Of a stretch of DNA of 64,000 bases, positions 51,914-61,300 are shown one piece after another. The position numbers and the translations under genes were made by a program. Each line of letters starts with the position of its first letter. The stretch's first letter is position 1. This DNA is from Acidimicrobiia bacterium. Its GTDB lineage: Bacteria; Acidobacteriota; Vicinamibacteria; Vicinamibacterales; UBA2999. The stretch lies in contig VFZG01000018.1 in NCBI GenBank assembly GCA_016871275.1, forward strand, positions 1 through 64,000, in the 5' to 3' direction. Under the pieces are notes generated by a model, which did not search any database, was not told the DNA's origin, and saw only the letters and a program-made list of their open reading frames with translations.

Positions 51914-53653
51914 CTACTGCTGTTGGCCGCCACGGCCTCCGCGCGGTGGCGGCGGGTTCTTCAGCGTCCGGTACTGCGCAAGCGCCGCGTTGATCTTGAA
52001 CTGGATGCCCATGCGGCCAATCTCGGCGGTCGCCTTCGTTGGATCACCCGACACGCCTGCATCCTTGGGTCCGCCCCACGGCATCAGCATGTTCTGGCGA
52101 ATGCCGGCCGGGCGCACGTGCAGGATCTGCGACGTGTCGCTGATGCCGGCATGGCTGCCGATGATGTCGTCGTTGTAGCCGAAGGCCGCATCCATCCACG
52201 CGCGATAGTGTTCGCGTCCCTCGTTGTAGTACCCGGTCAGCGCGTAGACCTTCGTCGTGCCGCCCTTCCACTCGGCATTGAGCTTGTCGGCCACCGCGAT
52301 CATGCCCGGCTGGTTGCCGCCGCTATCGCCGATGAACAAGATGTCGGTGGCGCCGTGGGCCTTCAGGCTGCGCGCAATGGCGTCGAGGACGGCGTCATAC
52401 GCCGGCGACGGCAGCGAGATGCCGCCGGCGTTTTGTCGATCGGGGTTGCCCTCGGGCACGTACTGCAGCGTGGGCGCGACGAGCGCGTTGCCGAGTTTGC
52501 GAGCCATCGCGTTGGCGGCGTGCGTGACCGTGTAGTTGTGCTTGCCGAGCACCATGTGGTAGCCGTTCTTCTCGGTGCCGCCGATCGGCACGATGAACAC
52601 CGTCTTGCCGGCTTTCATCGCATCGCGGTTCTCTTCCCAGGTGAGTTCGTCAATGAACACGGTGTCGGGCGCCTTGGTCGGCGTCTTGCTGGCCGGAGCG
52701 GTCTCCATGGTCGGGCGCGCCGGGCCCGCCGCCGCTGCGGGACGATTGGCGGCCGGCTGTCCGCCGCGACCGCCGCCGCCCTGCTGCGCGGGAGCGGGCA
52801 CCGGCCCTTCGGTGCCGTCGTTCATCCGCGTGATCTGCGCGAGCGCGTTGTCGATCTTGATCTGCAGCAGCGCCTTGCCGATCTCGGGCGTCGACTTCGA
52901 CTGGTTGTTGCCGCTGACGCCGTTGCCTTCGTAGTCGTTGCCGGTAAGCCGATCCTTGCGAACGTGCGTCGGCGCCACGAACAGCAGCTCGGAGGTATCG
53001 AGAATGTTGGCGTGATTGCCGACCTGGTCCTCGGCGACCTTCAACACCTTCGCGGCGTAGGTGTTCTGCTCGCGGTGCGCCTTGGTGTAGTAGTCGTCTA
53101 CCCAATAGGCGGTGGCGTCGCCCTTCCACAGCTCGTTCAGCTGCGTCGCCGCCGCGCGCATGCCGTTGCGGTTGCCGCCTGACTCGCCGAGGAAGTAGAC
53201 CTTCGTGATGCCGAAGGACTTCAGGCTGCGCCCCGCCAGCACCAGCAGTTCGGTGAAGCGATCCTCGGGCAGCGTGATGGTGCCGGGGTAGCGCATGTGG
53301 CCGGTAGGGGGATCCCAGCCGCCCTCGGGCACGTAGGTCACGACCGGCGCCACCAGCGTCTTGCCCAGCGCACGCGCGATCTTGTCGGCCGCAAAGTCCA
53401 TGACGAACTTGTGTTCGCCGTCCACCATGTGCGGGCCCTTCTGCTCGGTGCCGGCCGTGCCGACGATGACGCTGGTCGTGCCGGCGGCAACGAGGTCTCG
53501 CACTTCGGCCCACGTCAGCTCTTCGATGAAGACCGTGTCGGGCGGTTTGCCGCCTGGGCCCGTCGCGGGCGCATCGCCGGGACGCTGCGCGGAAATCACA
53601 CCCGCGAACGCCGCGCAGAGACAAGTCGTTGCAATCAGTACGCGCTGTTTCAT
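51914..53653 (-). CDS. Exported tandem creatininase-like protein with altered metal ligands
   Basis: The product is 579 residues. The signal peptide (VLIATTCLCAAFAGVISAQ) is followed by two creatininase-family domains (about 40-300 and 345-570) joined by a low-complexity linker with QQGGGGRGGQ. Canonical creatininases have EQHGPH...D and GHGGN metal motifs. Here domain 1 has EQKGPHMVDGEH and GESGGN, domain 2 EKNGYHMVLGKH and GDSGGN, so several ligands differ and a shifted His appears in both. Amidohydrolase activity is therefore uncertain. I start at ATG 53653, seven bases after TATGAT; the upstream frame runs through REP repeats and is not coding. Confidence 0.85.
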   Translation of the reverse strand: MKQRVLIATTCLCAAFAGVISAQRPGDAPATGPGGKPPDTVFIEELTWAEVRDLVAAGTTSVIVGTAGTEQKGPHMVDGEHKFVMDFAADKIARALGKTLVAPVVTYVPEGGWDPPTGHMRYPGTITLPEDRFTELLVLAGRSLKSFGITKVYFLGESGGNRNGMRAAATQLNELWKGDATAYWVDDYYTKAHREQNTYAAKVLKVAEDQVGNHANILDTSELLFVAPTHVRKDRLTGNDYEGNGVSGNNQSKSTPEIGKALLQIKIDNALAQITRMNDGTEGPVPAPAQQGGGGRGGQPAANRPAAAAGPARPTMETAPASKTPTKAPDTVFIDELTWEENRDAMKAGKTVFIVPIGGTEKNGYHMVLGKHNYTVTHAANAMARKLGNALVAPTLQYVPEGNPDRQNAGGISLPSPAYDAVLDAIARSLKAHGATDILFIGDSGGNQPGMIAVADKLNAEWKGGTTKVYALTGYYNEGREHYRAWMDAAFGYNDDIIGSHAGISDTSQILHVRPAGIRQNMLMPWGGPKDAGVSGDPTKATAEIGRMGIQFKINAALAQYRTLKNPPPPRGGRGGQQQ

Positions 53654-53660
53654 GCGCCGC

Positions 53661-53666
53661 ATCATA
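53661..53666 (-). promoter_or_regulatory. -10-like box TATGAT for tandem creatininase gene
   Basis: TATGAT on the minus strand ends seven bases before ATG 53653. The REP copies at 53705-53771 lie just upstream of this promoter. Confidence 0.5.
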
Positions 53667-53704
53667 CCCCGGGGCACCTCGGGCGGGACCCTCGTGGACC
53701 TCGT

Positions 53705-53726
53705 GGGGCTGGCCCCAAACGTCGCA
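53705..53726 (+). repeat. REP element copy 1
   Basis: The core GGGGCTGGCCCC is followed by AAAC and GTCGCA. The core folds as a short hairpin (GGGGC/GCCCC). It is one of seven copies in the window, five of which flank the RAYT gene at 53948. Confidence 0.85.
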
Positions 53727-53748
53727 GCGTCAACCTGTAGTCGACTGG

Positions 53749-53771
53749 GGGGGCTGGCCCCAAATGTCGCA
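53749..53771 (+). repeat. REP element copy 2
   Basis: The core GGGGGCTGGCCCC is followed by AAAT and GTCGCA, in the same orientation as copy 1 and 44 bases further on. It is the nearest copy upstream of the RAYT gene. Confidence 0.85.
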
Positions 53772-53947
53772 GGCTGATTCTGGACGAAGCGTCGGGGCGA
53801 TGCGCTAGCAGAAACTGCGATGCGAATCGGCACCTGCCACGGCAATTTGTTCGATGTTGACATCAGGTCGAGCCGCCACTGCGCGGGATTCTGGCCGCAC
53901 TTTCATCTGCGCTCGTACGGCAAGGAACTTGATACGAACACACACGT

Positions 53948-54802
53948 ATGGCTCGACGCCTTCGCGAAGAAATAGCCGGCGGTACGTTCCACGTCATGAA
54001 CCGTGGCAACCGAAAGGCTCAGATATTCATCGACGACCTTGACCGGCGCCGATTCTCGAGAATTCTGCTCGAGGAACAGAAGACTCACGGCGTCAAGGTG
54101 TGTAGTGAGTGTCAGATGGGAACCCACTTCCACTTGATCGTAACGACTCCCCGGGGCAACCTGTCCGACTTTGTCGGCGCGTTTGAGGGGCGCTTCGCCG
54201 ACTACTCAAACAGACGGCATGGCAACGTCGGACACTTGTACCAGGGCCGATTCGTTGACGTCGTCATCGAGGATGACGTGCAACTCCTCACGGCGCTGTG
54301 CTACGTCTTTCTCAACCCGGTCAGCGCCGGGCTGGTAACCCGAATCGAGGACTACCCCTGGAGCACGTATCGGGCAACCGCCGGTCTGGGTCCGGCGCCG
54401 CCGTACCTGTCGCTCGAGTGGCTCGAGTCTCTTTACCCCGGCGAGCCGCTCAAGGATGCGCAGCAGCACTTTCGCGCACTGATGAACGAAGCGCAGCCGG
54501 TGGTTGCGTACTTCGGTCCACAGAGCGCGGCAGTCGACCCCTGCGCGGTGAAGCGGGTCGTGCGCTCCTACGTCGGCGAGAACCTGCGCCTTGGACAACT
54601 CCCGCGGCTATTCCGGTCGGCACTGAGGGCCAGCTTGTCGGAACTGTTTCCGCCGGGTCTTGGCCGGTCGGAACTGCCCACCCGCATCTATGATGCTCGG
54701 GTGACGCACGGATACCGCTTGGTAGAAATCGCCAGGCACTTGCGCCTGCACAGGGCGACAGTGAGCCGAATCTTCCGCTCAGCTTGTAAATCCCACGAGT
54801 GA
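53948..54802 (+). CDS. REP-associated tyrosine transposase (RAYT, Y1/HUH family)
   Basis: The product is 284 residues. The HUH metal motif is His60-Phe61-His62 in GTHFHLIV, and the catalytic tyrosine is Tyr119 in ALCYVFLNPV; GHLYQGRF (96-102) is the family hallmark between them. The opening FHVMNRGN is also typical. The C-terminal part adds a helix-turn-helix (GYRLVEIARHLRLHRATVSR, about 258-277), making it longer than minimal RAYTs. RAYTs nick and join single-stranded REP sequences and are thought to spread them. Two REP copies lie upstream and three downstream, a complete REP-RAYT arrangement. Confidence 0.92.
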   Translation: MARRLREEIAGGTFHVMNRGNRKAQIFIDDLDRRRFSRILLEEQKTHGVKVCSECQMGTHFHLIVTTPRGNLSDFVGAFEGRFADYSNRRHGNVGHLYQGRFVDVVIEDDVQLLTALCYVFLNPVSAGLVTRIEDYPWSTYRATAGLGPAPPYLSLEWLESLYPGEPLKDAQQHFRALMNEAQPVVAYFGPQSAAVDPCAVKRVVRSYVGENLRLGQLPRLFRSALRASLSELFPPGLGRSELPTRIYDARVTHGYRLVEIARHLRLHRATVSRIFRSACKSHE

Positions 54803-54812
54803 CGAGTGACTT

Positions 54813-54835
54813 GGGGGCTGGCCCCAAATGTCGCA
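54813..54835 (+). repeat. REP element copy 3
   Basis: The core GGGGGCTGGCCCC with AAAT and GTCGCA starts ten bases after the RAYT stop codon. Confidence 0.85.
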
Positions 54836-54855
54836 TTCACGCAACGCGAGCCGGG

Positions 54856-54878
54856 TGCGACGTTTGGGGCCAGCCTCC
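54856..54878 (-). repeat. REP element copy 4 (inverted)
   Basis: TGCGAC then GTTT and GGGGCCAGCC, the reverse complement of the consensus with one T in the final C-run. With copy 3 it forms an inverted pair. Confidence 0.8.
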
Positions 54879-54900
54879 TGTGGTCGCCCGTGGTCGACGA

Positions 54901-54923
54901 TGCGACGTTTGGGGCCAGCCCCC
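54901..54923 (-). repeat. REP element copy 5 (inverted)
   Basis: TGCGAC, GTTT, GGGGCCAGCCCCC: a perfect inverted copy, ending 32 bases before the start codon of the phosphatase-like gene and next to its -10-like box. Confidence 0.85.
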
Positions 54924-54941
54924 ATTTGCTCGCGGGAAGTC

Positions 54942-54947
54942 TACAAT
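54942..54947 (+). promoter_or_regulatory. -10-like box TACAAT for phosphatase-like gene
   Basis: TACAAT ends eight bases before ATG 54956. It rejects the 50 upstream in-frame codons, which translate REP sequence. Confidence 0.5.
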
Positions 54948-54955
54948 TGCAGGTG

Positions 54956-56488
54956 ATGCTTCGCGCTGCCCTGCTGCTTACGCTCCTGCTTGGCGCCTCG
55001 TGCGCTTCCACGGGATTACCTGCGCCCGCTACCCAGCCTTCGCCGGCGATGGAGAATCGCGCCGCGGCCGCCACGCGCCAGCAGTGGCTGGACATGTTCG
55101 CGCGCAGCTACTTTCCCGGCCGCAGCGGCCAGGTGTTCGTGGTGCCAAGGCAGGGCTGGTTCGTGACATCGCGCGAGCCGCTGTACGCGTTCATGCACGG
55201 CTCGCCGCACGCCTACGACACGCGCATCCCGATGCTGCTCTACGGAGCGCCGTTCATCAGGGCCGGCCAGTTCAACACCGTGGCGCGGCAGCAGGACGTC
55301 GCGCCCACTGTCGGCGCCTTGATCGGCGCGTCGCCGCTGCCCACCTACACGGGCCGCATACTCACAGACGCCATGACCAACAGCGGCCGGCCACGCGTCG
55401 TCACGATCTTCGTGCTCGACGCGATGCGCGCCGACTACTTCGACAAGTACGCCTCGGTGATGCCGACGCTGTCGCGCATGCGCAAGGACGGCGCGTGGTT
55501 CGCTCAGGCGGAAACCAACGTGATGCCGACCGTCACCGGCGTCGGTCATGCCAACATCGGCACCGGCACCGAGCCCCGCTTCCACGGCATCGTCGTCAAC
55601 ACGCTCTTCAACCGCAGCACCGGCAAGTCCCAGGAGGCCTACGACCGGCTCGATACCCGCGAGTTGATGACGCTGACCCTCGCCGACGCGTGGAACCTGG
55701 CGACCGACGGCAAGGCGGTGATTATCGGACAGGGCGGCGCGATTCGGGCTACCGTCGGCCTCGTCGGGCGCGGCGCGTGCCTGATCAGCGGCAAGCGGGT
55801 GCTGGCCGCCAGCTATGGGGGCGCCGACGGCGGATGGGAAACGAATCCCGAGTGCTACACGATGCCCGAGGCGCTCAAGCGGTTCGTCGGCCGCAAGGTG
55901 TGGGAGGCCGCCAACGGCACCTGGATGGGCCACGACATTGCCAGCGCATCGAAGTTCCGCGCCTCCGCACTCTTCCAGCAGTACGAAGCCGAAGCGCTGA
56001 TGGCGGTGGTCAATGATGCGGCGGTGGGCGCCGATGACGTCAGCGATTTGATCTTCGTCAACCTGAAGGGGCCCGACTACACATCGCATGCCCACGGGCC
56101 TGATTCGGCTGAGCAGTCGGCCACACTCGCCGAGCTCGATCGCCAGATGGCGGCCTACCTGGCGCTGATGGACAAGAAGGCCGGCCCGGGCCGCCACGTC
56201 ACCGTCATCACCGCCGATCACGGCATGCCGACAGCGCCTCCGGTCGGCGGCCGTGTGTATCTGGATGACCTGGTCGCACAGCTCAGCAAGCGGTTCGCAG
56301 CGGCGGGGACCTTCGTGAACTACTACAACGACGGCGCGAACAATCAGCTGCACCTCGATACCGCGAGGCTGCAGGCGGCGGGCATCTCGTTGCGCGACGT
56401 CGCCACATTCCTTGAGAGCCTCGAGGTGTTCGACGCCGCCTTCACAGAAGACGACGTCAAGGCCGCGCAGGCGCGACTGCCCCGGTGA
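54956..56488 (+). CDS. Alkaline-phosphatase-superfamily lipoprotein with circularly permuted order
   Basis: The product is 510 residues. The lipoprotein signal ends LLGASC (Cys16). Metal-site motifs of the PafA-like phosphodiesterase/phosphatase group are all present: Asp155 in FVLDAMRADYF, nucleophile Thr192 in PTVTGVGH, KGPDYTSHAHGPDS and TADHGMP. The segment that normally closes such proteins (RSGQVFVVP, then HGSPHAYDTRIP with a zinc-ligand His81, and ARQQDVAPTVGALIG) stands instead at residues 56-124, before the catalytic core. The C-terminus stops where that segment would usually begin. It likely hydrolyses phosphate mono- or diesters in the periplasm. Confidence 0.85.
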   Translation: MLRAALLLTLLLGASCASTGLPAPATQPSPAMENRAAAATRQQWLDMFARSYFPGRSGQVFVVPRQGWFVTSREPLYAFMHGSPHAYDTRIPMLLYGAPFIRAGQFNTVARQQDVAPTVGALIGASPLPTYTGRILTDAMTNSGRPRVVTIFVLDAMRADYFDKYASVMPTLSRMRKDGAWFAQAETNVMPTVTGVGHANIGTGTEPRFHGIVVNTLFNRSTGKSQEAYDRLDTRELMTLTLADAWNLATDGKAVIIGQGGAIRATVGLVGRGACLISGKRVLAASYGGADGGWETNPECYTMPEALKRFVGRKVWEAANGTWMGHDIASASKFRASALFQQYEAEALMAVVNDAAVGADDVSDLIFVNLKGPDYTSHAHGPDSAEQSATLAELDRQMAAYLALMDKKAGPGRHVTVITADHGMPTAPPVGGRVYLDDLVAQLSKRFAAAGTFVNYYNDGANNQLHLDTARLQAAGISLRDVATFLESLEVFDAAFTEDDVKAAQARLPR

Positions 56489-61206: not shown

Positions 61207-61300
61207 CGACGCCCGGGCGACGCCCGGGGGCTGGCCCCAAATGTCGCTGCGACGTTTGGGGCCAGCCCCCCTGGTGTCCCCGGGTGTCGCCCGGGTGTCG
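61207..61300 (+). repeat. Giant hairpin enclosing an inverted REP pair (BIME-like)
   Basis: The outer arms 61207-61229 and 61278-61300 pair over all 23 positions as RNA, with two G-U pairs. Inside them two REP copies (61226-61247 plus strand and 61248-61270 minus strand) face each other around one base and pair almost perfectly. The outer arms are themselves built of a tandem unit, CGACGCCCGGG on the left. The whole could act as a transcription end or mRNA stabiliser after the propeller gene. No T-run follows. Confidence 0.85.

Follow-up and report, generated by a model that had tools for sequence, protein, structure and literature searches.

Introduction

Enzyme-hairpin pairs of the sort considered here are already known from other bacteria. 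The REPIN-RAYT systems of Pseudomonas (PMC3116915) and the TnpAREP enzymes of E. coli and others (PDB 4er8; PMC8266576) combine a single-copy Y1 enzyme, with its HUH motif and catalytic Tyr, with palindromes dispersed as inverted pairs whose tags face inwards. For groups 2 and 3, to which these systems belong, binding, cleavage and strand transfer have been shown in vitro (PMC8266576). The TIRYTs of Di Nocera et al. (2013) are Y1 enzymes unlike classical RAYTs in length and signatures, flanked by inverted GGGGWSAS repeats. In a few genomes they come with moderately abundant families dispersed in dimers or clusters, including a self-complementary one in S. maltophilia (ORF1152) and a repeated one in the acidobacterium K. 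versatilis/Koribacter (ORF1552) (PMC3733652). A 2018 survey defined subclass 2.1 (Bertels group 1) as long Y1 proteins with C-termini like HTH_23, HTH_28 or DnaA_C, listed no REP for it and suggested that it corresponds to the TIRYTs (PMC6006769). On REPINs, RAYTs and Acidobacteria together we found no literature beyond the PMC3733652 and PMC6006769 surveys.

Here we describe a locus within a window of 64,000 nt, by which we mean the whole stretch of DNA analysed, from a genome of 3.96 Mb termed G000; other G-numbers denote relatives in one 99-genome set (G000 and 98 relatives). With a probability of about 0.8, we are dealing with a TIRYT-type REPtron, in which a single-copy, probably domesticated HUH/Y1 transposase accompanies a cognate short palindrome that the enzyme mobilises. 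By length, C-terminus and repeats as read from the sequence, the protein fits the TIRYT group (subclass 2.1/Bertels group 1). At 284 residues it is long (the subclass median is 238), it bears a predicted C-terminal helix-turn-helix (HTH) of the HTH_23/HTH_28/Bac_DnaA_C-like kind, and like its subclass it is present in few copies per genome. Its motifs resemble the NH[YF]H and Y[IV]HLNP-like motifs of the subclass, although they read THFH and YVFLNP in G000 (PMC6006769). The flanking inverted repeats carry a GGGGWSAS-like motif: GGGGCCAG on the tag strand of G000 is one base off, whereas GGGGTCAG and GGGGACAG of relatives fit. Differences from the surveyed systems lie in the about 50 cognate repeats of G000, set against the 'no' entered for REPs in subclass 2.1, and in the enzyme-lineage pairing and empty site that the present system shows.

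The definitions based on tags do not apply. GTAG or GGAG directly 5' of the palindrome is not present in the repeats of G000 or of its relative G007, the tag instead changing with the RAYT lineage, and in contrast to groups 2 and 3 the G000 stem is only 4-5 bp and the enzyme has the additional C-terminal HTH. The CGTC REP superfamily (PMC3733652) was considered, as the letters CGTC occur at one unit end and inverted pairs predominate in both, and was rejected: in G000 CGTC lies 3' of the hairpin (the 5' tag being GCGAC), the stem is 4-5 bp rather than 8-9 bp, and the repeat flanks a Y1 gene, whereas CGTC REPs flanked none in that survey. Because the locus has the testable TIRYT features and falls outside the GTAG and CGTC definitions, its kind is already known. 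A sequence-only reading had called it a complete REP-RAYT system, which holds in so far as a RAYT-like HUH/Y1 enzyme comes with a cognate dispersed REP family but not in the canonical GTAG sense. It had also taken the C-terminal HTH for an extra and suggested, from the HTH and a REP core unlike those of enterobacteria and pseudomonads, that the recognition rule may be new. The HTH is indeed predicted, at residues 240-283, but as a hallmark of subclass 2.1/TIRYTs (PMC6006769) rather than an oddity of this protein, and flanking palindromes with dispersed relatives are on record for TIRYTs, including those of Acidobacteria and Stenotrophomonas (PMC3733652). What is new, as far as the consulted literature shows, is the present member with its copy number, its pairing by lineage and its particulars of tag, TC site and duplications.

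Results

The protein at the centre of the locus belongs to the HUH Y1 transposase superfamily (IS200/IS605, TnpAREP). It scores 31.2 bits against PF01797 (Y1_Tnp; cut-off 23), its best solved relative by sequence is the TnpAREP of PDB 4er8 (E 3e-8), and the HUH and Tyr motifs are read directly in the translation (Table 1), which bears out the earlier identification of a Y1/HUH transposase with His60-x-His62 and Tyr119. Against the NCBIfam family for REP-associated tyrosine transposases (NF047646, REP_Tyr_transpos) it reaches 64.6 bits, under the curated cut-off of 80. HTH_23 is the best C-terminal match, weak in the window protein and at E 4.9e-6 in the homologue L116 (56%). An AlphaFold model of low confidence (mean pLDDT 57, two-row alignment) has the ISDra2, 4er8 and IS608 transposases as its top fold matches; the C-terminal helical bundle is well predicted, and elsewhere only parts of the core are confident. 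The model is weak because a GTDB contig scan for more relatives yielded only two loci for the alignment.

Table 1. Features of the RAYT locus and its surroundings, in window coordinates.
Feature	Position	Strand	Basis
RAYT/TIRYT, 284-aa HUH Y1 transposase-like protein (Y1_Tnp, PF01797)	53948..54802	+	Pfam, PDB sequence and fold matches
HUH motif His60-Phe61-His62	54125..54133	+	motif read in translation
Catalytic Tyr119 in YVFLNP	54302..54304	+	motif read; Y-x-x-x-NP signature of TnpAREP, PMC6006769 Table 1
Predicted C-terminal helix-turn-helix, aa 240-283	54665..54796	+	weak HTH_23 match; three helices, pLDDT about 74-91 in model
REP copy 1, GGGGCTGGCCCCAAACGTCGCA	53705..53726	+	upstream of RAYT gene, direct; sequence read and genome pattern search
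REP copy 2, GGGGCTGGCCCCAAATGTCGCA	53750..53771	+	upstream of RAYT gene, direct; sequence read and genome pattern search
REP copy 3	54814..54835	+	downstream of RAYT gene, direct; sequence read and genome pattern search
REP copy 4, GAGG variant	54856..54877	-	downstream, inverted; sequence read and genome pattern search
REP copy 5	54901..54922	-	downstream, inverted; sequence read and genome pattern search
Further REPIN of same family	61227..61269	REP + 61227-61248, REP - 61248-61269	pattern search
11-nt tandem duplication CGACGCCCGGG x2	61207..61228	.	abuts hairpin of 61227 REP
Creatininase-family gene, left neighbour, marks cassette insertion site	51914..53653	-	PF02633; synteny
Phosphodiesterase/alkaline phosphatase-like gene, right neighbour	54956..56488	+	PF01663; synteny; ATG 54956 inferred

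The gene is surrounded by five copies of a palindromic 23-nt repeat with the consensus GGGGGCTGGCCCCAAAYGTCGCA. Direct reading confirmed the positions of the two direct copies upstream and of the one direct and two inverted copies downstream that the sequence-only reading had given. The core and tail GTCGCA that it had described as shared need trimming: the tail is present as YGTCGCA, but the core strictly common to all five copies is the shorter GGGGCTGGCCCCAAA, and copy 4, GAGGCTGGCCCC, has one mismatch. In copy 1 the base before the core is T instead of a fifth G. The REP-bearing region of the contig runs past the bounds first drawn for it, to the REPIN at 61227-61269 and to a cluster at G000:C18:64907-65019, just beyond the window end. 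The latter is a near-copy, spacer included, of the three-REP cluster 54814-54922 downstream of the RAYT gene, and its outer flanks hold two different 11-nt tandem duplications.

Across G000 the repeat recurs in about 50 copies, mostly inverted pairs; its absence from the rest of the genome would, by the sequence-only reading, have broken the link. The 22-mer GGGGCTGGCCCCAAANGTCGCA has 50 matches with up to three mismatches and the bare 12-mer GGGGCTGGCCCC occurs 49 times, with none for either when read backwards. Copies cluster at the RAYT gene, and several are intergenic or just 3' of genes. Over 49 copies the conserved stretch begins with a single G ahead of GGGG and ends with the A of GTCGCA, with flanks beyond it mostly unrelated, and in most of them the tag strand reads TGCGACRTTT-hairpin. 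The copies form 25 clusters, comprising 10 '+-' pairs, 4 '+--' triplets and a remainder of other arrangements or singles, and 14 of the 25 begin with a convergent '+-' pair, at a spacing of 27-84 nt. Each of these pairs has its hairpins at the outer ends and its tags pointing towards one another, which is the REPIN layout of PMC3116915. The smallest (C38 and C7:134576) form perfect palindromes some 42 nt long, and the single-stranded C82 and C38 pairs each fold into one hairpin, at -32 and -29 kcal/mol with DNA parameters.

The 99-genome set was searched with both the RAYT protein and the repeat. The repeat is present in two of the 99 genomes, G000 and G007; G007 is the genome of the public MAG contig JAIEMQ010000001.1 found in the GTDB contig scan, and has the enzyme closest to the G000 RAYT (62% identity) together with 38 exact REP cores. 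The sequence-only reading had set abundance of the repeat in relatives lacking this RAYT as grounds for dropping the link; among the 98 relatives the repeat is absent from 97, the exception being the owner of the closest RAYT. The G007 REP has a core identical to that of G000, the tail CGTAGC and a retained left side GCTAC, its tag strand reading GCTACGTTT. Downstream of the syntenic RAYT gene of G007 stand four tandem REP units with a 37-nt period (G007:C25:62314-62462; L119:2314-2462).

More distant RAYTs, 39-45% identical, occur at other loci in G001, G002, G004, G005, G006 and G008 and are flanked by repeats other than that of G000: GGATGATT-GGGGCCAGGCCCCC-GAAATCAC in G001/G008 and GATGATT-GGGGTCAGGTCAAGA-AAATCAC in G002/G005. 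A pattern covering these two repeats has 11 matches in G001, 7 in G008, 15 in G002 and 20 in G005. It has no match in G007, and its only two hits in G000 carry one mismatch each and are of another sequence. Dispersal of the flanking repeat is thus clear in four of the six genomes; in G004 and G006, whose RAYTs also have flanking repeats, there is almost none. The flanking repeat differs again at each of three further RAYT paralogues in G007. Since each RAYT lineage in the genus is flanked by its own repeat, repeat type tracks enzyme lineage, in line with the comparison of related RAYTs and their REPs that the sequence-only reading had proposed. The enzyme-hairpin link is thus real, as the near relatives couple enzyme variants of their own to hairpins of their own.

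The pairing also disfavours the view that selection maintains the repeats as functional hairpins (terminators, mRNA stabilisers or protein-binding sites) and that ordinary recombination copies them, the RAYT being a chance neighbour. REPs are thought to serve as RNA elements (PMC3733652), and the copies between or just downstream of genes would suit this. However, the repeat type follows the RAYT lineage across the genus and is missing from nearly all relatives, copies cluster at the RAYT, and others stand in frame within mfd, hisS, a glycosyltransferase gene and elsewhere, so that this explanation appears highly improbable.

G000 encodes four other Y1 proteins (C68:8758-9207, C27:15719-16222, C5:113928-114368 and C17:31677-32120), which are 29-38% identical to the RAYT. 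Three are flanked by inverted repeats of their own (TATCCGGGACTGGCACCTTAACAT, GTAACGGGGACTGACCCCGCACC and GGGGTCGGGACCATTT), and none was seen in the flanks of the fourth. That these proteins might act on the present repeats is a point against assigning them to the RAYT.

In G000 and G007 the RAYT occupies the same locus between the creatininase and phosphodiesterase genes. In G001, G004, G005, G006 and G008 these genes adjoin across a short gap with no RAYT or REP. Read most simply, this synteny reflects a single insertion, in the common ancestor of G000 and G007, of a cassette built as REP-RAYT-REP; its loss from the other genus members is possible and needs more events. With the site empty in five relatives, there must have been at least one arrival or loss of the complete cassette. 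Together with the copying of the three-REP cluster 10 kb away, this would be compatible with an ordinary, still-mobile IS200/IS605-like IS whose ends are the REPs and whose miniature derivatives are the dispersed REPs. What argues against such an element is the lack of multiple near-identical gene copies: G000 has the RAYT gene only once, its remaining Y1 proteins are distant, and a second gene copy with these ends was not found in G000. Moreover, the cassette has not changed place in either G000 or G007, even as their proteins drifted apart to 62% identity. We consider a mobile IS quite improbable.

The mfd REPIN is common to G000 and G007 and missing in seven relatives; the glycosyltransferase-gene REPIN (C82) is found in G000 only, as a net gain of 33 nt or 11 residues over five relatives, with an unrelated insertion at this spot in G007. 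REPIN gains therefore occurred both before and after the G000/G007 split. At the mfd spot, G001 and G005 (L216, L218) carry other REP-like sequences (GGGGTCTGGCCCCTTAACATC and GGGCCTGGCACCTTGACGTC), which resemble the repeat found beside the C68 Y1 gene of G000. In hisS (L002, C5:36826-36847) G000 has a perfect 23-nt REP where six relatives have other bases at equal length. It was rejected as an insertion site, and because the length is unchanged the REP looks like a replacement of native sequence. Given this replacement and the REP-like sequence at the mfd site in relatives, some of the copies are not explained by simple cut-and-paste.

Directly outside the hairpin, 15 of the 49 G000 copies carry a tandem duplication, mostly of 11 nt, compared with 1.1% of GGG sites in the window; in G007 the figure is 4 of 34 copies. 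Seven of the G000 duplications are perfect 11-mers, each of its own sequence. Since both ends of the C24 REPIN carry different duplications, these are not target-site duplications. Either slippage at a stalled fork or the action of the enzyme could have produced them, and we found no tandem duplications beside REPs described in the literature consulted. The duplications, the exact hisS replacement and the REP-like sequence in mfd of relatives would all agree with a route other than excision and insertion, in which REPs spread between similar sequences through gene conversion or template switching, started off by the RAYT or by forks that stall at the hairpin. The net gain at the glycosyltransferase site and the unique flanks at most copies, which resemble insertions, argue against this route, and we regard it as unlikely.

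The tags on both sides of the hairpin are complementary: GCTAC/GTAGC in G007 (exact in 19 of 34 copies, near in most others), GCGAC/GTCGC in part of the G000 copies and TGATT/AATCA in other genomes. Left and right tags change together between genomes, and it is from these differences that covariation of the tags is suggested, since within-copy covariation inside G007 shows no excess over shuffles (344/2000 reach it). Retention of the left GCGAC tag in all G000 copies was considered and rejected, as it is found with at most one mismatch in 9 of the 15 copies that have a duplication and in 6 of the 34 that do not, against a background of 20%. Among the 34 copies of G000 that lack a flanking duplication, 12 have TC at -7/-6 before GGGG, where 2.2 are expected (P about 9e-7, or about 4e-4 after 516 tests, in a 34-copy subset picked after seeing the data). 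Because E. coli TnpAREP cleaves at CT beside REPs (PMC8266576), this dinucleotide, GA when read on the tag strand, is a candidate for the site of cutting or targeting.

Discussion

Our results suggest a model for how a TIRYT-kind enzyme and its palindrome operate together. Most likely, judging from the analogy with characterised enzymes, the RAYT binds the tag and hairpin as single strands, uses Tyr119 to cut beside the hairpin and relocates REPs in pairs. The REP would become single-stranded, for example on the lagging-strand template, and the 23-nt unit would then present its 5' tag and hairpin to the enzyme (tag strand TGCGACRTTT-GGGG-CCAG-CCCC). Cleavage near the hairpin, putatively at the TC/GA dinucleotide, and rejoining of strands would carry mainly REPINs to new sites, with hairpins outside, tags inward and the pair foldable into one long hairpin, while the RAYT gene itself would remain single copy. 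In this history the G000/G007 ancestor would have acquired the cassette at the junction of the creatininase and phosphodiesterase genes, and the REPs would have dispersed afterwards in each lineage. Points against the TIRYT-kind REPtron are the NCBIfam score under the cut-off, the flanking repeats of G004 and G006 that show no real dispersal and the low-confidence structure model.

A more far-reaching proposal, which we put forward tentatively and regard as rather improbable, is that HTH-bearing RAYTs of subclass 2.1 may read a two-sided REP whose mutually pairing outer tags co-evolve with the enzyme, and that the site these RAYTs use may be a TC/GA lying 4-5 nt beyond the hairpin. Where IS200/IS605 enzymes cut and join cleanly, these RAYTs may instead copy REPs so that they enter or overwrite existing sequence, with 11-nt tandem duplications arising locally. 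For a RAYT group listed without REPs, the genus gives material on its relation to repeats: several enzyme/repeat combinations at 39-62% protein identity, an empty site, REPINs in mfd and a REP in hisS. Because the genus holds such combinations, the empty site and genic REPINs, recognition and mode of spread are directly testable by enzyme/repeat swaps.

The repeats also touch coding sequence. REPINs lie inside genes at L021 (C73, mfd), L023 (C82, glycosyltransferase), L028 (C1, membrane protein) and L110 (C38, small ORF), and the reading frame is intact at the copies inside mfd, hisS, the glycosyltransferase gene and others. Genic REPINs are read as peptides, such as RGLAPNVADDGSSATFGASP in the transcription-repair coupling factor Mfd, and in this way add short peptides to housekeeping proteins. 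At the RAYT locus itself the mechanical ORFs of both neighbour genes run through the REPs (window 53653-53863 and 54806-54955, the phosphodiesterase ORF starting at 54806), giving the false N-terminal extensions QPATFGASPP... and GLAPNVAFT..., so that automatic annotation may place wrong starts for both genes at REPs.
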